From: Desulfobacteraceae bacterium
GTDB taxonomy: Bacteria; Desulfobacterota; Desulfobacteria; Desulfobacterales; Desulfosarcinaceae
Length of the DNA: 33,059 nt
Assembly (NCBI GenBank): GCA_013003715.1
Contig: JABDIN010000019.1
Coordinates: forward strand, 1 to 33,059
Direction: 5' to 3'
Made by a program: the position numbers and the translations under genes
Notes under the pieces: generated by a model
What the model was told of the DNA's origin: nothing
The model's input: the letters and a program-made list of their open reading frames with translations, nothing else
The model's database searches: none
In this document: positions 7,201 through 18,878 of the stretch, one piece after another
How positions within the stretch are numbered: the first letter of the stretch is position 1
Layout: each line of letters starts with the position of its first letter

Positions 7201-8788
7201 ACTCTTCATCCAGTTCGCCAATCCGCGCCTGGGTGTCGTTGTGCCGCAAGTTGTAATAACCGCGATCCGGTATCACACCACCGGACAGATACAGGGACAT
7301 GAGCGCACCTTTTCGGGCAGTCAGCCGATTGTGCAGGCGATCGATGGCGATTCTCGGTTTCAATTCCCGTATCCGGGTTTCCACATACCTGCCCGCCAGC
7401 ATATTCAGCACCAGATCATACTGGAGACGGGTCAAGGGATGAAAAGGATAGCTGGTTTTCAGTTCAGCGAACAACTCATCCGTCTCATGGTCTTCAACAC
7501 CAACCATGGATACAATGACCTGGGCTAGGACATCCAGCGGGCAAATCGGGGCGGAGGCGCGTTCGATATCCTGTTGAACGATGGCTTCGGCAACAACCGC
7601 CGATGTGATGGTATCCATGGGATGGGACGGGAAAATGATGCCCCGGCTGACCGTTCCCACATGATGCCCTGCCCTGCCGATTCGCTGCACGGCCGCGGAT
7701 ACCGACGGTGGGGTCTGCACCAGAAACACTTCATCCAGCGCGCCGATATCGATCCCCATTTCAAGGGAACTGGTGGCCACGATGGCTTTCAGTTCACCTT
7801 GTTTCAATTTGGTCTCCACCTCATGACGTATTTCCTTGGACAGCGAGCCATGGTGGGAATAAGCCACCGGTTCCCTTTGCCGCAGGTTGATCAGGAATGC
7901 CAGTTTTTCACAAAGCTTTCGGCTGTTGGTGAAAATCAAGGTGGATTTGTTTCGTCGTAGATACTGGTGGAAGGTTTCCGCCAGAGGTTCCCAAATAGAC
8001 TTGTCCTGCGGCCGGTTTACCACATCATCCGGGATTTCGATCCGGACGTCGTATTGTTTGCCAGTGATAGACCGTATGACCGATACCTTCCGGGCCTTGT
8101 ATGACGATGCCGTGGGGTGCCCTTCCCGGCGATAACCGCCCACGAAAGCCGCCACTTCTTCCATCGGATTGATGGTTGCCGATAATGAAATACGCTGGAA
8201 TTCACCGCTCAGCCGGACAAGCCTGTCCACCGCGGAGATCAGGTAGGTGCCGCGTTTGTTGCCGAAGACCGAATGTATTTCATCAAGAATGACCGTCTTC
8301 AAACCGGTGAGAATGGAACGACCGCCCTTTGAACTCAGCATCAGATTCAGGCTCTCCGGAGTGGTGATCAGGATTTCAGGCGGTTGTTTCAGCATACGGC
8401 GCCGGTCGCTTTGCGGTGTATCGCCACTTCGGGTAAGCACCCGGATTACCGGAAGCGGTTGATTTTTCGCATGACCCTGGGCTTGAATTCCATCCAGCGG
8501 TTCGTGCAGATTTCGTTGGATATCGTTATTGAGCGCTTTCAGGGGGGAGACATATAAAATCCGCGGAACACCCCCGGACCAGGTTTCGGATACCAGTTGG
8601 TTGACCGCCCACAGAAAAGCCGTGAGGGTTTTTCCGCTGCCGGTGGGCGCCGTGATGAGTACATGCTCCCCCCGTGCGATTCGTGGCCAGGACTGGTTCT
8701 GAATGTCGGTGGGGTTGCCGTAAGTGTTACCAAACCATTGTGATACCAGGGGGTGAAAAAATTTCAAAGATGGTGAAATACTGGACAT
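4241..8788 (-). CDS. lhr: Lhr-type DEAD/DEAH superfamily 2 helicase, full length
   Basis: A 1515-residue protein, close to the length of long bacterial Lhr (about 1540 in E. coli). Visible motifs: Walker A APTGSGKT at residues 47-54, motif Ia SPLKALNND, TPESL, motif II DEIH at 169-172, motif III SAT at 203-205, then the second RecA domain with HHGSLSKEIR, ATSSLEMGIDIG and the QRIGRAGH motif VI. The remaining about 1000 residues correspond to the winged-helix, Lhr-core and long C-terminal regions. Lhr proteins are ATP-dependent 3'-5' translocases that unwind RNA:DNA hybrids and DNA, and are linked to repair. It is the first gene of the minus-strand run, with a 65-bp gap before the FliK-like gene. 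A frame without breaks over 4.5 kb makes the call firm. Confidence 0.95.
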   Translation of the reverse strand: MSSISPSLKFFHPLVSQWFGNTYGNPTDIQNQSWPRIARGEHVLITAPTGSGKTLTAFLWAVNQLVSETWSGGVPRILYVSPLKALNNDIQRNLHEPLDGIQAQGHAKNQPLPVIRVLTRSGDTPQSDRRRMLKQPPEILITTPESLNLMLSSKGGRSILTGLKTVILDEIHSVFGNKRGTYLISAVDRLVRLSGEFQRISLSATINPMEEVAAFVGGYRREGHPTASSYKARKVSVIRSITGKQYDVRIEIPDDVVNRPQDKSIWEPLAETFHQYLRRNKSTLIFTNSRKLCEKLAFLINLRQREPVAYSHHGSLSKEIRHEVETKLKQGELKAIVATSSLEMGIDIGALDEVFLVQTPPSVSAAVQRIGRAGHHVGTVSRGIIFPSHPMDTITSAVVAEAIVQQDIERASAPICPLDVLAQVIVSMVGVEDHETDELFAELKTSYPFHPLTRLQYDLVLNMLAGRYVETRIRELKPRIAIDRLHNRLTARKGALMSLYLSGGVIPDRGYYNLRHNDTQARIGELDEEFVWEARKGQVFTLGNQDWKIRHITHNDVLVVPARASKAPPPFWKAEETNRDFHLSEKIGLFLENINDQLNQSGLAERLAAQFILNKHAANDIIQFLKYQKARTGCDLPHRHHLVLEWINAGPGGGPGSQLVIHTMWGGRVNRPFALVLEAIWAEEFGYRIEVFAANDCIAMQLPKAFSSDRFIRLITSADVDALIRKRLESTGFFGARFRESCGRALLLTRRKIGERMPLWMTRLRSQKLLESVSKYTDFPILLETWRTCLKDEFDMENLRCVLTEVAEGTIRWTRIHNSNPSPMALTGAWRQVNDYMYRDDSPSGLGTSALSEDLMRQVVFTPGLRPTISGALIRGFEEKRQRLAPGYAPGSAMELVEWVKERLLIPQAEWESLLKAVTRDHGIHIPDLMGVMMVHLICICVRKPDPSAGEAVYIAAIQDAARLVAFFWDGATDDIRYASLDGKPVTAPAISEARSVGNTMNDAMDVLSSVSQWLSYYGPLTMVFISDALTLPEHVLQTHMNNLMDDNAVISGQLVKDTGDITFCDSDNFEILLRMNRAAQSKAFEPLDLAKLPLFLAQWQGLTRQTDNRDGLHDIMVQLSGYAAPAELWETAFIPARVPSYDPLWLDALMNENRMMWKGRENKQVLFCVHDDMDLIAPETNSDVSALETGENKIPSEDRDSPTAPEVLPDTYGRYDFASLLRLSDISGSDLWNRIWERVWAGNLTNDTFMSVRKAIEWKFTLATGRKMTAAGPYKRRRGYRKPLKSSNDRGMMVPGNWYAIEPPVQCSDLLEVEELKKDRVRLLLDRYGILFREILKKELPVFRWTSIFRTLRLMELSGEIIGGLFFDQLPGPQFISRQAWRTLNNNLPESAIYWMSAVDPASLCGYGLGGLPADLPTRLPGNHIVYHGSRRVVVSRRHGGSLKISVPPDHEHMVEYLSFMNHLLTRCIDPLKYIDIAEINELPAAKSPYLDTLRTLFDVNVEHKKVVVFRKMQ

Positions 8789-8846
8789 TTATATCTCGAT
8801 ATGCAATTGGTTATCAGCTCGGACGAACCGGTGGAGTCGAGTCTCA

Positions 8847-8865
8847 CATCCGGCAGCACCGGATG
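8847..8865. repeat. 7-bp perfect inverted repeat upstream of lhr and of the divergent small gene
   Basis: CATCCGG and CCGGATG arms separated by five bases, in the 150-bp divergent intergenic region between lhr and the plus-strand gene at 8939. It has no T-run, so a protein-binding site or small hairpin is more likely than a terminator. Function is unassigned. Confidence 0.4.
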
Positions 8866-8938
8866 GAATAGTCGGGACACCGGATAATCAAATGGCCGCC
8901 TTGGTGTTGAACAGACTGAAAAATAAAAGGAATAACAC

Positions 8939-9373
8939 ATGACACATGCTGATGCAGGACATTATAAAAAAAAACATCCCGAGGGCACACCCCTTAGCCC
9001 GGAAATTGCCGATCCCCTCCGGCAAAAAACCAGAGATGGTTGTGTTACCTGTGCTCAAGCCCATGATATCGCCAAAACAGGAAAAAAACCTCCCCGTGAT
9101 GTGGGTATGTCCATGGACCTGATGGAACTGCGCCTGACCGCCTGCCAACTCGGGCTGTTTGGTTATGGGCCGAAGCAAAAAAAGGTTTCGCCGGCGGCAA
9201 CCGTTTCCGCCGACCTGGCTGATGCCATCGAAAAAAAAACAAGATCAGGCAGAATAAGCTGCGAATCCACATGGGACATCGCCGAACAGCTCGGGATCCC
9301 CAAAATGGCGGTGGCGGCGGCTTGTGAAACGCTGAAATTCAAAATCAGTCCATGCCAGCTGGGGGCGTTTTAG
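8939..9373 (+). CDS. Small conserved-looking protein built of two tandem 56-residue repeats (unknown function)
   Basis: A 144-residue soluble protein with no signal peptide; I do not recognise a named family. Residues 19-74 and 89-144 align without gaps as two copies of one unit (my count: 18 of 56 identical). Shared positions include ADxxxxxK-TR-G, a central Cys, a D-I-A triplet and a C-terminal CQLGxF signature that closes both copies. In the second copy, DIAEQLGIPKMAVAAACETL reads like a helix-turn-helix; the first copy has lost the Gly-Ile turn. Cys residues at the same place in both units could bind metal, but this is speculative. The gene has a good AAGGA ribosome site and ends 29 bp inside the convergent darP gene. 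Confidence 0.72.
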   Translation: MTHADAGHYKKKHPEGTPLSPEIADPLRQKTRDGCVTCAQAHDIAKTGKKPPRDVGMSMDLMELRLTACQLGLFGYGPKQKKVSPAATVSADLADAIEKKTRSGRISCESTWDIAEQLGIPKMAVAAACETLKFKISPCQLGAF

Positions 9374-9872
9374 ACACACTCAGCTCTTTCAGATAATCCA
9401 ATAATTTCTGAAATGCTTTCGCATGCTGCGGTGTTTCCTGCAGTGCTTCTTTATTCGCGTTTCTTACCAGATTACGGATGCGCTGTATATCGGCATGCGG
9501 ATATTCGGACACTACTATCGCCAGTGTATCTTCATCCATTGCGGCTAGCCGTTCAGCTCTATCCCTGAGCTGGCCGGCCCTGACTGCACTTAGATGATCC
9601 CCATCGGCCATGCGTTTGAATTCCTGCAGTATGGGTTCGACATCGACGCTGCGCAACAGGCTGCCGATATGGAGAATCTGGCGTCTGCGGGCACCATGTT
9701 TTTTCATGGTTTTGGCCTGCAGGACCGCATCCAGCAGGTCCGCTGGCATGTCAATTTTTCTTAGTCTTTCGGCCGCAAGCCCCACCATCTCCTCGCCCAA
9801 CCGCTGAAGTTTCCTGACTTCCTTTTTCTGCTGTGTCCGGCTGATAATCTCTGTTTTCGGCATTAATTTCAT
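9345..9872 (-). CDS. darP: DarP/YjgA family ribosome biogenesis factor
   Basis: A 175-residue basic, helical protein of the DUF615 (YjgA/DarP) family, with the usual length. Signatures seen: SRTQQKKEVRKLQRLGEEMV near the N-terminus, RRRQILHIGSLLRSVDVEPI in the middle, and the helix YPHADIQRIRNLVRNANKE followed by KAFQKLLDYLKEL at the C-terminus, all in family order. In E. coli DarP binds precursors of the large ribosomal subunit and helps 50S maturation in the cytoplasm. The ATG at 9872 has an AAGGA motif contributed by the second copy of a 13-bp tandem repeat (9882-9907). It lies just after a small conserved gene, probably in one transcript. Its 3' end overlaps the opposing small gene by 29 bp. 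Confidence 0.87.
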   Translation of the reverse strand: MKLMPKTEIISRTQQKKEVRKLQRLGEEMVGLAAERLRKIDMPADLLDAVLQAKTMKKHGARRRQILHIGSLLRSVDVEPILQEFKRMADGDHLSAVRAGQLRDRAERLAAMDEDTLAIVVSEYPHADIQRIRNLVRNANKEALQETPQHAKAFQKLLDYLKELSVSKTPPAGMD

Positions 9873-9881
9873 TCGTTCCTT

Positions 9882-9907
9882 AGATAGTGTCCTCAGATAG
9901 TGTCCTC
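9882..9907. repeat. Perfect 13-bp tandem duplication spanning a stop codon and the darP leader
   Basis: AGATAGTGTCCTC occurs twice head to tail. On the minus strand the first copy encodes the last residues (EDTI) and stop of the upstream small gene; the second lies between that stop and the darP ribosome-binding site. Removing one copy would leave the same protein end with TAA in place of TGA, so the duplication is neutral for coding but lengthens the spacer by 13 bp. Confidence 0.85.
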
Positions 9908-10225
9908 AACCACAAAAGGCGTACTGCGAATACCCAGACTCCCCTTTTTAATCCAGACCCTGACCATGGGGATGGTTTCGTTCTCAAAGTTGACGATATT
10001 GGTTTGGTTTTCCACATAGGTGATATCGTCGATTTGAAATTCATAAAAAAAGGTATTCGTGCTCACCGGATCCACAACAAGGATCACACGCTGATGGTCG
10101 TGGGGGTGTTTTCGCGGTGACCCGCTGAAGGCAACGTTCATTGACCGCAAATCCCTTATGTTCCTGGGTTTCCGGTATGCCTGTATTTCAAATTTCATTG
10201 TTTCCTGAATGGATTCAACCGGCAT
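9893..10225 (-). CDS. Small conserved hypothetical protein
   Basis: About 110 residues, soluble, no signal peptide or membrane segment. The sequence (KFEIQAYRKPRNIRDLRSM..., FSGSPRKHPHDHQRVILVVD, then a beta-rich half ending MVRVWIKKGSLGIRSTPFVV) looks like a compact alpha/beta domain. I recall similar short proteins in sulfate-reducing deltaproteobacteria, sometimes labelled Ppa or pyrophosphatase, but the classical pyrophosphatase active-site motifs are not visible, so I assign no function. I chose ATG at 10225 because a GGGGGA ribosome site lies just upstream; an in-frame TTG at 10237 would add four residues. It precedes darP by about 20 bp and is probably cotranscribed. Confidence 0.7.
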   Translation of the reverse strand: MPVESIQETMKFEIQAYRKPRNIRDLRSMNVAFSGSPRKHPHDHQRVILVVDPVSTNTFFYEFQIDDITYVENQTNIVNFENETIPMVRVWIKKGSLGIRSTPFVVEDTI

Positions 10226-10653
10226 CTCATCCCCCAATTCAAATATTTGATTTAATAGTAGTTTTACCCGGCCATGTGCACTCCGATTGTCGGGTTCGGT
10301 GTCATTTTTATGAGCCTACGGAACCGCACGGCAGATGCTACGGGAATTCTTTTTTTTGACATCAAACACCGGAGGCCGTGTTCACCGGCTTTCCCCAATG
10401 TCGGTATTTCGGGGATAGCGATATCCGGCTCGAACATTCCTGAATATACCCGATTTTGAAAATATTTCAAAATCAATCATCATATAATTTGAAAAACCGT
10501 ATAATTCCGGGATAAAATTTAAATACAATGCACCTGCAGGGTTTTATAATATCCAAAATATTTTACGGGAAATGAAAAACAAATGTAACCTCAAGCCCGA
10601 TTATGATTCTCTAATCTCGCTTAGGTATTGAATCCATTTTACAAGGAGTACGA
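10226..10653. other. Divergent intergenic region, 428 bp, no convincing gene
   Basis: It separates the minus-strand darP pair from the plus-strand iron-sulfur gene. Short overlapping frames exist on both strands (for example 10264-10476 minus and 10274-10459 plus), but neither has a credible ribosome site or recognisable domain. The right half is AT-rich and contains a 10-bp perfect inverted repeat (10452-10474) and a possible sigma70 promoter: TTGAAA at 10489-10494, 18-bp spacer, TAAAAT at 10513-10518. A leader of more than 100 nt would then precede the gene at 10654. Confidence 0.5.
10452..10474. repeat. 10-bp perfect inverted repeat (possible operator)
   Basis: GATTTTGAAA, three bases, TTTCAAAATC. 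It sits about 15 bp upstream of the possible -35 element at 10489 for the FeS/cytochrome/rhodanese run. The position suits an activator or repressor dimer; no T-run follows, so a terminator is less likely. Confidence 0.5.
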
Positions 10654-11637
10654 ATGTCCACATTACTATCGAGACGTGCTTTTTTGCGTGGTGGGGTGGC
10701 CGCAGCCGGAACCGTTGCGGCGAGCCCGGTGGCCAAGGCGCTGCCCCAAGACAACACCTCGGAGCAATTGGCGACGCTCATTGACATCCAACGATGCATC
10801 GGTTGTGAATCCTGCGTGGAGGCATGCCGTGACAGCAATCAGACAAAGTTTCCGAATCCGGCCAAACCCTTTCCAAAAATGTATCCGAATCGGGTGCCGG
10901 TGGAAGACTGGTCTGAAAAACAGGATGTTATGGATCGTCTGACGCCATACAACTGGCTTTTCATCCAGAGTGCTTATGTGGACGTTAACGGGGAAGAAAC
11001 GGAGCTGAGCATTCCGCGGCGCTGTATGCACTGCACGAATCCGCCCTGCGTTAAATTATGTCCATGGGGCGCAGCGCAGCAACTGGATAATGGTATATCG
11101 AGAATCGATGCCGACTTATGTTTGGGGGGATCCAAATGCAAGAATGTCTGCCCATGGCAAATTCCCCAACGCCAGACCGGAACGGGGCTCTACCTGGATC
11201 TGCTCCCATCTCTGGCCGGAAACGGGGTAATGTACAAATGCGACAGGTGTCATGATCGAATTGCAGAGGGAGAGCTGCCGGCGTGTATAGACGCTTGCCC
11301 CGAGGATGTCCAGACCATCGGCCCGCGTGATGAAATTATTGCCGAAGCCCACCGGATTGCAGCGGACATCGATGGTTATATCTATGGTGAACATGAAAAT
11401 GGCGGTACAAATACCATATATGTTTCACCGGTACCTTTCGAAGAGATAAACAGGGCCATGGAGGGGGGGAAAGGTATCCCTCACTTGGGTGCTGCGACGA
11501 ACAGGATGGAGGCGGCTGAAAATCTGGCGCTTGCCATGGTCATCGCTCCCTTTGCCGGGCTGGCCGCCGCTGCCGGCAAAATCGTAAAACACTTCAAATC
11601 CGGTATCGATCAAGGAGACGCCAATGAAACCAAATAG
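10654..11637 (+). CDS. Tat-exported, membrane-anchored iron-sulfur subunit (FdhB/HybA/PsrB-like)
   Basis: A 327-residue protein. The N-terminus carries a twin-arginine signal (SRRAFLRGG, residues 6-14) ahead of an Ala-rich stretch, so it is exported folded. Four cysteine motifs follow: C48/51/54/58, C124/127/132/136, C156/162/166 and C196/199/211/215. Fifteen of the 16 expected ligands are present; residue 159 in the third motif is Gly where Cys is expected, so one cluster is probably [3Fe-4S] or has an unusual ligand. A hydrophobic helix near residues 284-305 could anchor the C-terminus, as in formate dehydrogenase-N beta and HybA. Such subunits pass electrons between a periplasmic catalytic subunit and membrane cytochrome b. 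No catalytic molybdopterin subunit is adjacent. AAGGAG precedes the ATG. Confidence 0.9.
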   Translation: MSTLLSRRAFLRGGVAAAGTVAASPVAKALPQDNTSEQLATLIDIQRCIGCESCVEACRDSNQTKFPNPAKPFPKMYPNRVPVEDWSEKQDVMDRLTPYNWLFIQSAYVDVNGEETELSIPRRCMHCTNPPCVKLCPWGAAQQLDNGISRIDADLCLGGSKCKNVCPWQIPQRQTGTGLYLDLLPSLAGNGVMYKCDRCHDRIAEGELPACIDACPEDVQTIGPRDEIIAEAHRIAADIDGYIYGEHENGGTNTIYVSPVPFEEINRAMEGGKGIPHLGAATNRMEAAENLALAMVIAPFAGLAAAAGKIVKHFKSGIDQGDANETK

Positions 11638-12100
11638 CACCACCGCAACTCAGTCATCCAGCAGATGGTCTGCGACCTTTAACGGCGGTATCCTGTTTCT
11701 GCTGATGTTGACCGGATTTGCGCAAATGCCGATATTTAAAAGGTACTACATCGCCGATATTCCCGGATTAGGATGGTTGGCCCAATTCTATGTGACCCAT
11801 TTCCTGCATTATCTGTTTGCAGCCATTTTTGTCGCCATCGCGACCTATAAAACGGCGGAATACATGCTAGAAAAAAAGCAGGTGTGGAAACTCAGCCCAA
11901 GGGGATACCTGATGGTCCTGACACTGTTCGGGCTGATATTCACCGGCGGGCTGCTGGTCATTCGAAATCTGTCCGGTATCTACTTTCCGGCTTCATTTAT
12001 TATCGCCCTGGATATCGGCCATTTGCTGCTGGTGTTCGGATTGATGGCAGGTGTTGCATATGGCCTGTTTTCCAAAACGGGGTGGTTGGCACGTCGATAG
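11624..12100 (+). CDS. Cytochrome b-type membrane subunit (FdnI-like), four helices
   Basis: A 158-residue membrane protein with four predicted helices (about residues 16-36, 55-76, 94-113 and 122-148). Histidines His59 and His62 in helix 2 and His133 in helix 4 are placed like haem ligands of formate dehydrogenase/thiosulfate reductase gamma subunits. The helix-1 histidine usual in FdnI is absent (Asn20 in that area), so perhaps only one or an atypical haem pair is bound. It overlaps the iron-sulfur gene by 14 bp and has an AAGGAGA ribosome site inside that gene, so the two are coupled and almost certainly form one complex linking periplasmic electrons to the quinone pool. It is smaller than FdnI (about 217 residues). 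Family assignment is by topology and context more than motif. Confidence 0.78.
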   Translation: MKPNSTTATQSSSRWSATFNGGILFLLMLTGFAQMPIFKRYYIADIPGLGWLAQFYVTHFLHYLFAAIFVAIATYKTAEYMLEKKQVWKLSPRGYLMVLTLFGLIFTGGLLVIRNLSGIYFPASFIIALDIGHLLLVFGLMAGVAYGLFSKTGWLARR

Positions 12101-12475: not shown

Positions 12476-13234
12476 ATGATCGGAAGATGCGTTTATGGTT
12501 CCAGTACGGCTCTTTTTCTTCTTTTTTTTCTAACGCATGTTGTAATCGCTGCTGAAGCTGCCGACATCAGACGGATCAGCGCACCTGAAGTTAAAAACCT
12601 GGTCGAAACCGACCAGGCCCTCTTAATACATGTGCTCAGTGAAATTGAGTTTGAGTTTCAACACATTCCGAAATCCATAAATATCCCCATCATAAAGATG
12701 GCTTCCACGAATTTACTGCCCCTCGATAAAAACCGCCCCCTGATTTTTTATTGCATGGGAGAACGCTGACCCTATAGTCTGCGTGCTGCAAGGATTGCAG
12801 CAGAAAAAGGATATACCGAAATCTATGCATTTGTGGGCGGTATTCCGGAGTGGCGAAAATTCAGTTATCCCATGGAATTCGATGTGGAATGGCAGCAGAT
12901 TAAAGTCAAAAAAATGACACCGGAACAGGTCAAGGAAAGCATAGAAAAAGCAAATCCTTTTATTCTGGACGTTCGCCCCTTGAATTTTCAACGGGATACC
13001 AGTTTCATTCATGGCGCCCATTTATGCCCCCTGGTTTATCTTTCGGATAAATACGATGAGGTTCCAAAGGTCAGGGAAATCATCATCACGGATTGGGCCA
13101 TGAAACAATCACCGGTGGCCGCTAAATATCTCATCAAAAGAGGGTACCGGGTCATCGGTGTGCTAAAAGGAGGCCTCGAACGCTGGAAAGCGGAACTCTA
13201 TCCGGTCGAAGACCGGACCCCCATGAAAGATTGA
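12476..13234 (+). CDS. Exported double-rhodanese protein with in-frame UGA, probable selenoprotein
   Basis: Read through the TGA at 12767-12769, this is one 252-residue protein. An N-terminal signal peptide (hydrophobic core about residues 9-26, cleavage probably after AEA) sends it to the periplasm. Domain 1 (about 30-130) has the rhodanese order: EFEFQHIPKSINIPI, IFYC, active-site loop, AARIAAEKGY, VGGIPEW. The UGA is codon 98 in the loop C93-M-G-E-R-U98-P-Y-S, where family members of the YCxGxxCxxSxxAA type carry a second Cys. Domain 2 (about 140-245) keeps the fold (FILDVRPLNF, GGLERW) but has DWAMKQS where the Cys loop belongs, so it is probably inactive. A SECIS-like hairpin follows the UGA. 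GGAGG precedes the ATG. The alternative is a nonsense mutation or sequence error, in which case the 97-residue upstream fragment would be non-functional. Likely works in periplasmic sulfur or polysulfide transfer with the upstream FeS/cytochrome pair. Confidence 0.8.
12767..12804 (+). promoter_or_regulatory. Selenocysteine UGA codon with bacterial SECIS-like hairpin
   Basis: TGA at 12767-12769. The stem TGCTGCAA (12784-12791) pairs perfectly with TTGCAGCA (12795-12802) around a GGA loop. The distance from UGA to loop is 22 nt, within the 16-37 nt window used for bacterial SECIS elements, and the loop begins with G, the feature SelB recognition requires. The hairpin is inside the coding frame, as in fdhF-type genes. 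Confidence 0.75.
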
Positions 13235-13290: not shown

Positions 13291-15708
13291 ATGAATTCTA
13301 TAGAACGCAAACCGGTCCGCAGGCAGATTATTCATCAGATCATGATGTTATTCGGCCTGCTGTTTTTCGTCATTATCGCCAACGCTTTCTTCTCCGCTTA
13401 TCATACGAGTAAAGATATCATTGCCTATGCGGAGAAAGAACTCGATTACCGGCTCAAAAACATCACTTCAATACATCAAAACCAGATCGACAAGTTGGCG
13501 ACTATATCGTTGATTGTAACGGAACAAAATCAAAAATTTTGTGATTTCATCGATTATGACAATGTCCGCGCCCTTACCTATATGCTTAAATCCCTGGGAA
13601 CCATTCATGATGTCGATACTGCGGTGATATTCAATGAAATCGGCCAAATCATCACCACATACCCAAAAGGTTCCGGGTTTTCGGATATACAGGCATACAA
13701 GAGCCTTATTACCATAAAAACGGAATGGGTGGGTATTGAAGAGATTAACCCGCAGATCGTCATGGATCAGTTCACCGATAACACCTACAATACCAGGGCC
13801 GGTTCCACTCTCGGGTTTAAATCGACCATACCGCTTGTTCATGATACCGGTGAAATTTACGGTCATGTGGTATTGGTCAAATTCATCAACGGAAATGACA
13901 GGCTGGCGGAACAGATGGTGCAGTACACCGACGCGGATATTTTTTATTTCGACCGCAACCAGGCCCCCATCCTGACCAACCTGCCCTTAAACACAAGGGT
14001 TGAACATGCCCTTGACCAATTTATCATCAACGGACAATCCTACCTTTCAGCCAAAATCGAATTGAATAATTATGCGGGCATACCCATTGGCGAATTGGCC
14101 ATCGCTTTTTCCAACGAAAACTACCTGAGTCAAAAAACACAATTGCTCTTCAGTCATATATTGCCGTTCGTCATATCGATCTTTATATCCATCGCCTTCT
14201 TCCTGCTGTTGAAGCGGCGGGTCTTCAACAAGGTCCACCGGCTCAGCCAGGCATTGAGAATGGTCACTTCCGGAAAAAGTGATTTGAGTATCCGATTATT
14301 GAATTTTCCGGAATCCAAAGCGGACGGCTCAGATGAAATAGAGAATATGTGTATTGATTTCAATCATATGATGGACAAGTTGGAGGACACCTATAATGAG
14401 ATGGTCACCGTACGTGGTGATGTCGAGGATGCCAATCGTTCGCTGGAGCTTCGGGTCAAACGCCGGACATCCATAATTTCAGAAATGTATGATGACCTTA
14501 AACTGCAGATGGAAGAGCGACGCCGGGCGGAAACAGAGCGCAAGGAGCTCGAGTTGCGGCTGGAGCGTGTACGAAAGATGGAGGCGCTGGGAACGCTTGC
14601 CGGCGGCGTCGCCCATGATTTGAACAATATACTTTCAGGCATCGTCAGTTATCCTGAACTGCTGTTGTTGGAGTTGTCCGAAGACAGCCCCCTCCGGAAA
14701 CCCGTTCTCACCATTAAACAATCCGGCGAAAAAGCCGCTCAAATCGTTCAGGATCTGCTCACTTTGGCCCGGCGGGGGGTCGCCTCCATGGTTCCGGTCA
14801 ATTTGAATGCCACCATTAAAGACTATCTGAACAGTCCGGAATTCGAAAAGCTTAAATCCTACCATCCCAAACTATTGCTGACCATAGAATTGGCGGAGGA
14901 TTTGTTCAATGTTATGGGATCGACGATTCATTTATCGAAAACCATTATGAACCTGGTTTCTAACGCAGCCGAAGCAATGCCGGACGGCGGAAAATTGATC
15001 ATTCGTACCGAAAACAGGTATGTGGATGCCGTCATCAAAGGGTATGATAACATCGATGAGGGTAATTATTGTATTTTGACGGTATCCGATTCCGGCATCG
15101 GTATATCCGAAGACAATCTTGAACGCATTTTTGAGCCGTTTTTTACCAAAAAAATAATGGGCCGCAGCGGCACCGGTTTGGGTATGTCGGTGGTATGGGG
15201 TACCGTCAAAGATCACCACGGTTACATCGATGTCAGAAGTCAGGAAGGGTCCGGCACCACGTTCAATCTCTATTTTCCCGTGACACGCGTGGCCTTGCAG
15301 GTTGAAGGCGATGCCATAACCCTGGAAAGTATCAAGGGAAATGGTGAGAGCGTTCTTGTTGTGGATGATGTGGAGGAACAACGGGAAATAGCATCGAAGA
15401 TGGTGGAAAAGCTTGGATACCGGGTGCATGCTGTCGACAGCGGAGAAGCGGCTATAGCTTATCTGACGGAACAAGCTATGGATATCCTGATATTGGATAT
15501 GATCATGACACCGGGAATAGACGGACTGCAAACCTATAAAAAAATAATCGGGATCAATCCCCGCCAAAAAGCCATCATCGCCAGCGGTTTTTCAGAGACT
15601 GCGGATGTAAGGACCGCCCAGGAGTTGGGGGCCGGTGAGTATATCAAAAAGCCCTATTCGTTGGAGCAAATAGGAAAAACCCTTCGGCGGGAATTGGAAG
15701 ACGGTTAG
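13291..15708 (+). CDS. Hybrid sensor histidine kinase with periplasmic sensor, HAMP, kinase and receiver
   Basis: An 805-residue inner-membrane kinase. Order: TM1 (about 15-35), a periplasmic sensor region of about 240 residues (dCache-like by length), TM2 (about 287-308), HAMP (about 310-365), a coiled coil, HisKA with phospho-acceptor His442 (GGVAHDLNN), and a HATPase with N box (NLVSNAAEAMPDGG), G1 (DSGIGI), F box and G2 (GTGLGMSVV). A C-terminal receiver follows, with Asp736 (LILDMIMTPG) and the conserved Lys-Pro near the end. No output domain is attached and no DNA-binding response regulator lies next to it, so phosphate probably goes to a distant partner or is drained by the receiver. 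It begins 56 bp after the rhodanese stop on the same strand, so it may sense the same chemistry. The Shine-Dalgarno is weak. Confidence 0.92.
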   Translation: MNSIERKPVRRQIIHQIMMLFGLLFFVIIANAFFSAYHTSKDIIAYAEKELDYRLKNITSIHQNQIDKLATISLIVTEQNQKFCDFIDYDNVRALTYMLKSLGTIHDVDTAVIFNEIGQIITTYPKGSGFSDIQAYKSLITIKTEWVGIEEINPQIVMDQFTDNTYNTRAGSTLGFKSTIPLVHDTGEIYGHVVLVKFINGNDRLAEQMVQYTDADIFYFDRNQAPILTNLPLNTRVEHALDQFIINGQSYLSAKIELNNYAGIPIGELAIAFSNENYLSQKTQLLFSHILPFVISIFISIAFFLLLKRRVFNKVHRLSQALRMVTSGKSDLSIRLLNFPESKADGSDEIENMCIDFNHMMDKLEDTYNEMVTVRGDVEDANRSLELRVKRRTSIISEMYDDLKLQMEERRRAETERKELELRLERVRKMEALGTLAGGVAHDLNNILSGIVSYPELLLLELSEDSPLRKPVLTIKQSGEKAAQIVQDLLTLARRGVASMVPVNLNATIKDYLNSPEFEKLKSYHPKLLLTIELAEDLFNVMGSTIHLSKTIMNLVSNAAEAMPDGGKLIIRTENRYVDAVIKGYDNIDEGNYCILTVSDSGIGISEDNLERIFEPFFTKKIMGRSGTGLGMSVVWGTVKDHHGYIDVRSQEGSGTTFNLYFPVTRVALQVEGDAITLESIKGNGESVLVVDDVEEQREIASKMVEKLGYRVHAVDSGEAAIAYLTEQAMDILILDMIMTPGIDGLQTYKKIIGINPRQKAIIASGFSETADVRTAQELGAGEYIKKPYSLEQIGKTLRRELEDG

Positions 15709-15936: not shown

Positions 15937-17070
15937 ATGAACTTCAAATCAAGGGTCGACTATAAAGCCGTTTTTGTGTTCTTCGTATCCTTTTTGCTAT
16001 TGTTTTCGGCGCTTTCGTGGGCCGAGAATACGCCCAGGCTCAACAACGGCAAAAAATGGCGCATCGGATATTATGAAGGTGGCCCCTACTCCGATTACAC
16101 GGACACCATGAGAACATTCGTGAAGGGATTGATTGAGCTGGGGTGGATCCAGGAGACACCGCCCCCGGAACTATTTTCCGACATACCCAAGCCCTATTGG
16201 AAGTGGTTGGCGGAGTGTGACAGCAAGTTTTTATCTTTCCAGGCCGAAGACGGCTATTCCGCCTCCTGGGATGAACAAAAACGGTCGACGATCCGCAGTG
16301 CGTTGCTGGAAAAGCTGAAAGCGAACACCCTGGATCTGGTTATTGCCATGGGGACATGGGCAGGTCAGGATTTGGCCAACAACGAACACGCCATACCGAC
16401 TCTTGTCATGTCTACCTCCGACCCCATCAAAGCAGGAATCATCAACAGCGCGGGAAGTTCGGGACTTGAACACGTCACCGCCAGGGTCGATCCGGGTCGA
16501 TATTTGCGGCAGATACGGATGTTCCATCGGATAGCGGGATTTCAAAAATTAGGTATAGCATATGAAGATACACCGGATGGGCTGCTCTATTCCGCCGTCA
16601 GCGAAGTTCATCGAATTGCCGAAGAAAGAGGTTTCGATGTCATCACCTGCCATGTGATCGATTCAACGGCTGATACCGAACTTTCGGATCGTTCCTGCAT
16701 GGATTGTTACCGTCAATTAGTCGAAAAAGCCGAGGCTGTTTATGTCACGGCGCTGACCTGCGTGGACCGGCAGGTGAAGGCTCTTGCGGATCTTTTTAAA
16801 GCCGCGGGTGTCCCCTCTTTTTCATTGGTGGGTTCGAAATATGTCCGGAAAGGATTGCTTTTGAGTATCTCCAGCGATTCCGGTTACACCGAATTGGGCC
16901 GGTACAACGCCGGAAAATTCGGAGAAATCCTCAATGGTAAGAAACCTATATCGCTCGAACAAGTCTTTGAGGATCCATTGGCAATTGCCGTGAATATTAA
17001 GACCGCCCGCGAAATCGGAATTGAAATACCGAAGAGCATTCTACGAATTGCAGCAGAAAAATACGAATAG
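15937..17070 (+). CDS. Periplasmic ABC-type substrate-binding protein (PF04392-like), sensor partner
   Basis: A 377-residue protein with a signal peptide (hydrophobic core about residues 11-27, cleavage near SWA-EN). The mature part has the two-lobed pattern of the ABC_sub_bind family related to TrpX-like proteins: WRIGYYEGGPYSDY at the start, an LDLVIAMGTWAG strand-turn, IPTLVMSTSDPIKAGI, FQKLGIAYEDTPDG and GKKPISLEQVFEDP near the end. No ABC permease or ATPase gene is adjacent. Instead the stop is only 2 bp from the start of a hybrid histidine kinase, so it most likely binds a ligand in the periplasm and presents it to that kinase. The ligand cannot be read from sequence. A cluster of Cys around residues 248-271 is unusual for this fold. 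Confidence 0.85.
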   Translation: MNFKSRVDYKAVFVFFVSFLLLFSALSWAENTPRLNNGKKWRIGYYEGGPYSDYTDTMRTFVKGLIELGWIQETPPPELFSDIPKPYWKWLAECDSKFLSFQAEDGYSASWDEQKRSTIRSALLEKLKANTLDLVIAMGTWAGQDLANNEHAIPTLVMSTSDPIKAGIINSAGSSGLEHVTARVDPGRYLRQIRMFHRIAGFQKLGIAYEDTPDGLLYSAVSEVHRIAEERGFDVITCHVIDSTADTELSDRSCMDCYRQLVEKAEAVYVTALTCVDRQVKALADLFKAAGVPSFSLVGSKYVRKGLLLSISSDSGYTELGRYNAGKFGEILNGKKPISLEQVFEDPLAIAVNIKTAREIGIEIPKSILRIAAEKYE

Positions 17071-17072
17071 TC

Positions 17073-18878
17073 ATGCCCTTGCGATTAAAAGGATATTTAG
17101 GCGTTTTCATTGTATGTTGCGTCTATTGGATACTTGACAGTATCTGGTCTTTTTTGTCGTTTGAATACAACTTGAAAAATTTGATCGTCCGTGAACCGTC
17201 CTCCTATGTTGATACCCTGCTGCTAAGGGTTCCCCCCTATCAGATTGTCTCGCGGTTGATGGTAATCGCACTATTGACCATTCTGGGGATCATCATTCTC
17301 GAGTTTTTCAGAAAAAGGCAGATTGCCGAAAAGGATCGTAAGCAGGCCCACGACACTTTTCTAACCATATTGAACAGCATTGATGCGACCATTTATGTCG
17401 CCGATATGCAAAACCATGACATCCTGTTTATGAATCAGTATGTCATCGATCATTACGGATTAGGGGACGCCGGCAAGAAATGTTACGAGATTTTTTGTCA
17501 TAACAGGCAAATCTGCGGCAATTGCACCAATGATCAACTACTGGACGAATCGGGAAATCCCAACGGTGTGGTGGTTTCGGAAAAAAAGAATCCGATAACC
17601 AATGCCTGGTATCTCAACTATGACAGGGCGATAAAATGGATCGACGGCCGTATCGTCCATTTACAGATCGCCACGGATATCACCCGATTAAAGGAACTTC
17701 AGGAAAAACAGTTAGAGGCTGAGTCCCATTTGCGCCAGGCGCAGAAAATGGAGTCCATCGGCACGTTAGCCGGAGGAGTCGCCCACGATTTTAACAATAT
17801 TCTATACATGATCATGGGGAATGCGGAGCTTGCAATGGAAGATATCCACGGGTCAAGTCCCGCCCATGAAAATCTCAGGGATATCACCGGTGCGTGCAAA
17901 CGTGCTGCCGGTATCATCAAACAACTGCTGAATTTCAGCCGCAAGGCCGACCCGGAACGCAAATCCGTCAATGTAATACCCGTGATCAAGGACGCACTCA
18001 GGTTAATGCGATCCACCATACCCGCCTCCATTGATATTCGAGCAACTTATGCTGCCGACGAATTGAACATCCTTGCCGACCCGATCCAGATCGATCAGCT
18101 ACTGATAAACCTGCTCACCAATGCGTCCCAGGCCATGGAAGAGACGGGCGGGATTCTGAGTATAAGTGTTGAAAATGAGCACAACCATCAGGAAACCCCT
18201 GAGCCCTTTCATGAAAAGGCTTCAGGCGAATATGCCCGAATCACCATCCGCGATACGGGCCAGGGTATAGACCCTGACGACCTTGACCGTATTTTCGATC
18301 CGTACTTCACCACCAAAGCCCTGGATAAAGGTTCAGGCATGGGCTTGGCGGTGGTTCACGGCATCGTTAATAATCATGGTGGTACCATTGCCGTGGACAG
18401 CCAACCCGGTGACGGCACCTGTTTCACCATACGGTTCCCGGTGATCGCGGAAAAACCGGAAGTCTTTACCGAATCGGCAGATGAAATACAGGGTGGCGAT
18501 GAAAAAATACTGTTTGTTGACGATGAGGAATCCATTACGAATATGATCCGGAGGTTGCTGAACCGGCTTGGGTACCAGGTTGAAACAAAGAACAACCCGG
18601 TGGAAGCCATCGAATTGTTCCGACAACAGCCTGATGCCTACAATCTGCTGATAACCGATATGACCATGCCGCAGATGACAGGCCTGAAATTGTCGGAAAA
18701 ACTGAGAACGATTCGTCCGGATCTGCCGGTTATCATCTTCACCGGGTATAACTCCCTGATCGATGAGACAAGAGCATCGGCACATGGCATAAACGCCTTT
18801 GTCATGAAACCCCTTGATACCCGAAAAATGGCAATTACCGTTCGGCACGTGCTGGATGGAACAAATGGATCAAGATGA
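17073..18878 (+). CDS. Hybrid histidine kinase with PAS, coupled to the binding protein
   Basis: A 601-residue kinase. Two membrane helices (about 7-28 and 60-82) flank a short periplasmic loop too small to be a ligand domain, which fits sensing through the binding protein encoded 2 bp upstream. A PAS-like domain (about 95-205) holds a Cys cluster (KKCYEIFCHNRQICGNC) common in anaerobic sulfate-reducer PAS domains and possibly redox- or metal-responsive. Then come HisKA with His238 (GGVAHDFNN), HATPase (NLLTNASQAMEETGG, DTGQGI, GSGMGLAVV) and a receiver with Asp529 (LLITDMTMPQMTG). As with the first kinase there is no DNA-binding output and no neighbouring response regulator. The two kinases have the same HisKA subtype and may share a partner. 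Confidence 0.92.
   Translation: MPLRLKGYLGVFIVCCVYWILDSIWSFLSFEYNLKNLIVREPSSYVDTLLLRVPPYQIVSRLMVIALLTILGIIILEFFRKRQIAEKDRKQAHDTFLTILNSIDATIYVADMQNHDILFMNQYVIDHYGLGDAGKKCYEIFCHNRQICGNCTNDQLLDESGNPNGVVVSEKKNPITNAWYLNYDRAIKWIDGRIVHLQIATDITRLKELQEKQLEAESHLRQAQKMESIGTLAGGVAHDFNNILYMIMGNAELAMEDIHGSSPAHENLRDITGACKRAAGIIKQLLNFSRKADPERKSVNVIPVIKDALRLMRSTIPASIDIRATYAADELNILADPIQIDQLLINLLTNASQAMEETGGILSISVENEHNHQETPEPFHEKASGEYARITIRDTGQGIDPDDLDRIFDPYFTTKALDKGSGMGLAVVHGIVNNHGGTIAVDSQPGDGTCFTIRFPVIAEKPEVFTESADEIQGGDEKILFVDDEESITNMIRRLLNRLGYQVETKNNPVEAIELFRQQPDAYNLLITDMTMPQMTGLKLSEKLRTIRPDLPVIIFTGYNSLIDETRASAHGINAFVMKPLDTRKMAITVRHVLDGTNGSR

Follow-up and report, generated by a model that had tools for sequence, protein, structure and literature searches.

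A two-domain rhodanese gene with an in-frame UGA

The window, by which we mean the whole 33,059-nucleotide stretch analyzed here, is the entire contig 76 of a 5.5 Mb genome (115 contigs, 97% complete) from a Desulfobacteraceae bacterium. It contains a gene for a two-domain rhodanese that is crossed by an in-frame UGA codon, a SECIS-like hairpin downstream of that codon, and a gene for a receptor kinase directly 3' of the rhodanese; genes for an FeS protein and a hydrophobic protein lie upstream (Table 1). L and G numbers below are our labels for loci and genomes.

Table 1. Position of the features discussed, in window coordinates
Feature	Position	Strand	Basis
FeS protein and hydrophobic protein, judged outside the conserved module	10654..12100	+	In 0/19 other clade loci; 375-nt gap to rhodanese
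Two-domain rhodanese gene with in-frame UGA	12476..13234	+	ATG at 12476; terminal TGA at 13232-13234
Cys93 codon, first active-site residue	12752..12754	+	Cys in 29/29 rows of alignment A4 (29 rows, double-UGA relatives absent from these rows)
UGA codon, predicted Sec98	12767..12769	+	TGA in 23/23 clade sequences; Cys in 26 other two-domain relatives
SECIS-like hairpin, 8-bp stem, GGA loop, TGCTGCAA-GGA-TTGCAGCA	12784..12802	+	Folding and synonymous-choice comparison
Cys184 codon, third conserved Cys, domain 2	13025..13027	+	In 22/23 clade sequences
Asp206 codon, in place of the expected domain 2 catalytic Cys	13091..13093	+	In 23/23 clade sequences and 29/29 A4 rows
Predicted periplasmic sensor region, double-CACHE-like	13291..14220	+	AlphaFold2 (pLDDT 85.8); Foldseek
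Receptor kinase: sensor, HAMP, HisKA, HATPase_c, receiver	13291..15708	+	Pfam; directly 3' of rhodanese

An earlier reading of the DNA letters alone (hereafter, the sequence-only reading) had described two frames in the same register split solely by this TGA, with rhodanese sequence continuing across it. A single frame does run from the ATG to the terminal TGA, and the Pfam Rhodanese family (PF00581) is matched in two stretches (7.9e-24; 84.5 bits against a gathering cut-off of 22.2). With UGA98 read as Sec, the product has 252 residues; its AlphaFold2 model is a confident two-domain structure (mean pLDDT 90.6) whose nearest PDB folds are rhodaneses. The hydrophobic N-terminus suggests that the product is exported. 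The active-site loop reads YCMGERUPYS and contains C93 and U98. The UGA had been placed at the second Cys of this loop, and many relatives have the second Cys of a C-x4-C pair exactly there. The loss of the catalytic Cys from domain 2 was also correctly noted, Asp206 standing in its place throughout the clade defined below. The source genome has 13 rhodanese-profile matches including that of the window (e.g., G000:C82:58713-59555), and those at C39, C83, and C86 have a TGA within the matched frame.

Decoding of the UGA codon

The source genome encodes selA (TIGR00474, 601 bits), selB (380 bits), a tRNA-Sec with anticodon TCA (selC; 71 bits, also detected by ARAGORN), and selD, which carries an in-frame TGA of its own (TCGUAAK); all four genes that the sequence-only reading had proposed looking for are thus in place. 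The sensor or the module (see below) occurs in 19 genomes, source included; selA is present in 18 of them and a tRNA-Sec over the cut-off in 17. G509 has a UGA rhodanese, and neither selA nor a tRNA-Sec over the cut-off was found in its incomplete assembly (89%); no tRNA-Sec over the cut-off was found in that of G568 (72%).

A scan of named genomes yielded a sole relative, L010, from the metagenome-assembled genome Desulfobacteraceae bacterium BH30, with 57% identity and a TGA at the same codon; no relative was found in viral contigs. Within the 30 genomes of the window's own family, four relatives were translated, of which L013 has TGA at site 98, L012 and L014 have Cys, and in L017 both active-site codons are TGA. 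Many more Sec and Cys relatives came from a profile search of 395 genomes of the phylum and from a search of 22 genomes of a second family. Homologs therefore show the exchange that the sequence-only reading had anticipated, with Cys at position 98 in some and UGA in others. A tree of 62 two-domain rows, in which both active-site residues were masked, requires at least five changes of Sec/Cys state at the site; it was built by a quick search with no bootstrap and has some long branches outside the window's group. The window falls within a 23-row, all-Sec group (SH-aLRT 100), hereafter, the clade, and in alignment A4 every one of its 23 sequences, which come from 16 genomes, carries TGA at codon 98.

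Two-domain rhodaneses with two UGA codons occur at L017:748-1518 (minus strand), at L099:7964-8728, and in L064, with the motifs YUMGYRU and YUMGYTU; they have the UxxxxU spacing of TsoB without its DsbD part, and the one in L099 sits 14-40 nt ahead of a hybrid kinase (8766-11594).

To what extent the frame past the TGA is conserved as protein can be judged from four close pairs of relatives, on which the dN/dS estimates rest because dS is undefined for most segments between the window and L010 or L158. After the TGA, dN/dS is 0.095, 0.156, 0.136, and 0.237, similar to the values before it in the same pairs (0.159, 0.260, 0.100, and 0.208, respectively); over the 32 codons just past the TGA it is 0.036-0.121. 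Such low values point to a translated protein and not a decaying tail, so the decay that the sequence-only reading had named as a possible refutation is contradicted by purifying selection. These results also bear on the possibility that the gene is a pseudogene or contains a sequencing error, in which case the TGA would truly end translation or would be misread. Table 11 assigns TGA to termination, and the window hairpin alone is not significant, but recurrence of the TGA at the same codon in every clade sequence and dN/dS of 0.095-0.237 past it in the four pairs make this explanation extremely improbable.

Bacterial SECIS elements follow a distance rule, by which the hairpin lies close downstream of the UGA. 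Here the stem begins 14 nt past the TGA and the loop is reached after 22 nt, as the sequence-only reading had it. The folding check proposed with that claim gave a divided result: the hairpin is present, with G in its loop, but it is not remarkable in the single sequence (z -1.35 for a 44-nt fold of the window hairpin alone, with 21 of 200 shuffles equally stable). A 91-nt fold gives z -2.96. No comparable hairpin follows the terminal TGA at 13232 by folding (z +1.45), and an Rfam scan of the window gave no match at gathering score. We rejected single-sequence folding as proof of a SECIS element: in a test of 56 rows (7 of the 63 distinct two-domain rows were absent, nearly all for an unmatched active-site pattern), only 4/30 Sec rows and 3/26 Cys rows beat 95% of synonymous shuffles, and the two classes differ only at p 0.048. 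Because this approach is too weak, we used a synonymous test at fixed positions in its place.

The hairpin axis sets third codon positions opposite each other at three pairs, where pairing is consequently decided mainly by synonymous choice, and expectations come from synonymous shuffles that follow the codon use of the gene concerned. Across the clade, with two inner wobble-wobble pairs in each of its 23 sequences, 43 of 46 are complementary where 13.6 would be expected, a score reached in 0 of 4000 shuffles; as the clade sequences are related, these and the following statistics are not probabilities for independent lineages. When the outer pair is added, 52 of 69 are complementary (23.3 expected), the outermost pair being formed in only 9 of the 23 sequences. 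One inner pair is C-G in 11 sequences, U-A in nine, and U-G in three. L010 differs from the window at two stem pairs; each of them has changed on both sides, and all four changes are synonymous. The loop codon is AGG (Arg) in 19 clade sequences and AGT (Ser) in four, yet AGG makes up just 70 of the 259 Arg codons in these genes. Eight further Sec relatives show the same excess (18/24 vs 8.7 expected), and 26 Cys relatives show no significant excess (36/78 vs 29.4, p 0.06). This wider axis test left out the Sec rows L017, L058, L060, and L064; of these, L060 is without a clear hairpin in its best fold and the other three form one in a different register. The clade test dropped none. It is the comparison of relatives, not the single-sequence fold, that lifts the hairpin above chance, and judged by codon choice the SECIS-like hairpin is maintained by synonymous selection.

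Ordinary UGA readthrough, or production of a 97-residue fragment only, would leave the protein without Sec. This is a very improbable account given that relatives have Cys at site 98, the sel genes are present, the hairpin is under selection, and the codons past the TGA are under purifying selection. The suggestion of a selenocysteine enzyme is instead borne out by the sel genes, the invariant TGA of the clade, the purifying selection beyond it, and the hairpin kept by synonymous choice. We consider it almost certain that the gene encodes a putatively exported two-domain rhodanese in which SelB and tRNA-Sec decode UGA98 as Sec with the aid of the hairpin.

Mechanical ORF calling splits the rhodanese gene at the TGA, and no NCBIfam model reaches its cut-off for the window protein or six relatives checked, so genes of this kind may be recorded as truncated. 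They can be recognized from the alignment of the clade together with the hairpin.

Gene neighborhood of the rhodanese

The sequence-only reading had singled out an FeS/cytochrome pair upstream of the rhodanese. The FeS protein is real by Pfam and resembles HmcB/HybA, below cut-off, but the name cytochrome is not borne out for the 158-residue product of 11624-12100, which has no Pfam match at E 0.001 and no NCBIfam match. In principle these two proteins and the rhodanese could make up an electron-transfer chain with the rhodanese at its catalytic end, since all three genes are on the same strand and the FeS protein has the resemblance just given. Against this, a tblastn search at E 0.001 found neither protein in any of the 19 other clade loci (several of which are short or end at contig edges), and the rhodanese is set apart by the gap given in Table 1. 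We rejected the partnership, and regard such a chain as highly unlikely. Across 33 loci of the wider family, there is one FeS match, in L104 (25% identity, ~4 kb from the rhodanese), and none to the hydrophobic protein.

The conserved partner is instead the downstream sensor kinase, of which the sequence-only reading made no mention. The N-terminal 310 residues of this receptor, its sensor region, have no Pfam match at E 0.001 beyond the HAMP edge and no PDB sequence match at E 0.01. In the AlphaFold2 model two PAS-like parts come after a long helix, and Foldseek matches this model to the sensor domains of LuxQ, DctB, and KinD; a double-CACHE-like fold is thus predicted. No Cys is conserved in the sensor (alignment A5), which makes direct thiol exchange with the rhodanese unlikely.

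The sensor is found in 3/395 genomes of the phylum, the same three that have the highest-scoring Sec rhodaneses, and in 10/389 genomes of the order (the source is counted in both). A rhodanese stands immediately ahead of the sensor gene in 17 of 20 loci, one of which, L159, is counted on the last 50 residues of a rhodanese at the contig edge. When genomes were found by the sensor alone, the preceding same-strand gene was the rhodanese in 9 of 12, and the other three lacked this arrangement. Conversely, 9/9 genomes of the second family picked by their Sec rhodanese have an adjoining sensor (two of them, G174 and G330, belong to the phylum set as well), and the sensor is present in 0/13 Cys-paralog loci of that family within 1.5 kb or less on each side. 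Seven loci have two complete tandem Sec rhodaneses ahead of the receptor. The three loci in which the sensor has no upstream rhodanese (L162:5214-8573, L164:407-3550, L165:554-1534) indicate that it can exist without one. The receptor gene of G490 has an in-frame TAG in its sensor region (L158:8546-8551), which may reflect pyrrolysine, an error, or decay.

The output of the receptor is not constant. The window protein joins the sensor to HisKA, HATPase, and a receiver, and L010 has the same arrangement with two receivers. L088 has HisKA-HATPase; L168 and L163 have HisKA-HATPase plus two or three receivers and Hpt, and L166 is similar without a listed Hpt. In L160 and L161 the sensor is joined to a SpoIIE phosphatase. 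The output domain varies, then, and the sensor and rhodanese remain together. We hold it very probable that the rhodanese and the downstream receptor kinase work together as a conserved two-gene module.

Relatives of the wider family also neighbor signaling genes. Chemoreceptors adjoin the Cys rhodaneses of L086, L089, L091, and L085 (the last by a local profile and HAMP match) and the Sec rhodaneses of L092, L094, and L096. Hybrid kinases adjoin the Sec rhodaneses of L093 and L095 and the double-Sec rhodanese of L099, and the Sec rhodanese of L084 adjoins a Tll0287-HAMP protein. By local profiles, L087, L102, and L108 have no signaling neighbor, and the FYCES- and FYCNG-type Cys groups are mostly without one. 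A same-strand signaling neighbor was scored in 25/46 loci vs 10/270 other ORFs by the local profiles, a count that favors positives because the profiles were trained on receptors of these loci; it includes L114, whose kinase is 1038 nt off, and misses L092 (chemoreceptor 42 nt downstream), L084 (Tll0287-HAMP), and L158 (receptor frame cut by TAG).

Other neighbors were seen as well. In L098 a two-domain Cys rhodanese is followed by a 628-residue protein (8694-10580) that has a membrane part and contains several CxxCH motifs, as seen in this one locus. L098 is one of 10 loci (L097, L098, L100, L101, L103, L105, L107, L110, L112, and L113) in which the rhodanese is followed by an ORF of 610-645 residues. 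In the window itself, positions 15937-18878 encode an ABC-type substrate-binding protein (PF04392) and then a hybrid histidine kinase, a second pair of periplasmic protein and kinase.

Proposed role and known systems

We propose that the Sec rhodanese is a Sec-dependent periplasmic partner of transmembrane receptors, its ligand and mechanism being inferred. Close relatives are encoded beside one family of membrane sensors, which suggests a part for the selenium protein in how the cell senses its surroundings. In the periplasm, Cys93 would either become oxidized or accept sulfane sulfur, the donor being polysulfide, persulfide, or thiosulfate. Attack on it by Sec98 would produce a perselenide or a Cys93-S-Se-Sec98 bridge, and the likely switched state is the Cys93-Sec98 selenenylsulfide. 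The double-CACHE-like sensor could read this redox or sulfur-loaded state by docking or through a released product, altering the activity of whichever output domain the receptor carries. Domain 2, with Asp206 for Cys, may serve structure or docking instead of adding another catalytic site. For the mechanism as a whole, from Cys93/Sec98 through sensor to output, we see even odds. A broader generalization is more tentative and somewhat less likely than that: Sec rhodaneses may sense reactive sulfur or redox state for a dedicated sensor in kinases and SpoIIE phosphatases, and their Cys and Sec kin may do likewise for chemoreceptors.

The protein might instead be a stand-alone selenocysteine-containing periplasmic sulfurtransferase or sulfur-redox enzyme, with a receptor that controls its expression or answers to the same substrate. 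The rhodanese fold and loop are intact, and the multiheme or membrane cytochrome that follows the Cys relative in L098 is what a redox enzyme would predict; the link goes with the sensor region and not with the output domain, however, and no metabolic gene is common to the clade loci when the window genes are used as queries. Judged by gene order, the association speaks for a sensing partner no less than for a sulfurtransferase that acts by itself. We consider the stand-alone enzyme unlikely, though a serious alternative, and give a probability of roughly 0.6 to the reading in which the protein contains Sec, the module is functional, and sensing is its role. Most discussion of selenoproteins treats them as redox enzymes. 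In this case a Sec rhodanese has an evolutionary tie to the input domain of a receptor, not to its output; if the sensing role is true, selenium chemistry would operate at the entry point of bacterial signaling, and an uncharacterized sensor family would gain a testable partner.

The sequence-only reading noted that Sec in rhodaneses was not wholly new, and rightly so. PMC13188914 tabulates five rhodanese-like selenoprotein forms (PF00581) with the motifs UxxS, UxxG, CxU, UxxG, and UxxxxU, and rhodanese selenoproteins are mentioned in PMC9312934, PMC8318568, and PMC2398784. Forms 1, 2, and 4 (UxxS/UxxG) share the rhodanese fold, and U98-P-Y-S101 of the window fits UxxS, the last residue being S or G within the clade. 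Going by this motif match to form 1 (WP_010941598.1), the Sec position of the window protein has probably been cataloged already. Passages of PMC13188914 on these forms describe no receptor link, two-domain architecture, or clade.

Other families differ in the active site. The best NCBIfam match is NF041203, a rhodanese-related (seleno)protein with the motif LYCAU (form 3, CxU; 85 bits vs a cut-off of 115), in which Sec is two residues past the Cys, whereas in the window it is five past. TsoB (NF045694), a rhodanese/DsbD fusion of form 5 (UxxxxU), has Sec at the second position with the same spacing, but the window protein scores 64.6 bits against a cut-off of 805, is without the DsbD part, and has Cys, not Sec, at the first position. 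The PQQ-associated CXXCW protein (TIGR03865; 43.1 bits vs a cut-off of 128) and ordinary C-x4-C rhodaneses have two Cys in the same loop region, one of them where the window has Sec.

For the receptor, the nearest comparison is LuxQ, whose structure (3c38) matches the sensor fold with a TM-score of 0.69 by target length and 13% identity; two of the Foldseek matches are titled LuxP-LuxQ complexes. LuxP is a soluble periplasmic binding protein that works with LuxQ, and LuxQ is instructive for this reason, although the partner in the window is a rhodanese and not a binding protein. No paper linking a rhodanese or selenoprotein to a receptor in this way was found in open-licence full texts. The sequence-only reading had looked for novelty in an exported two-domain rhodanese beside FeS and cytochrome genes, a neighborhood that is not conserved; the receptor context is the new part. 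Sec in rhodaneses is known, and a receptor-coupled subfamily of Sec rhodaneses is new in the open-licence literature searched.
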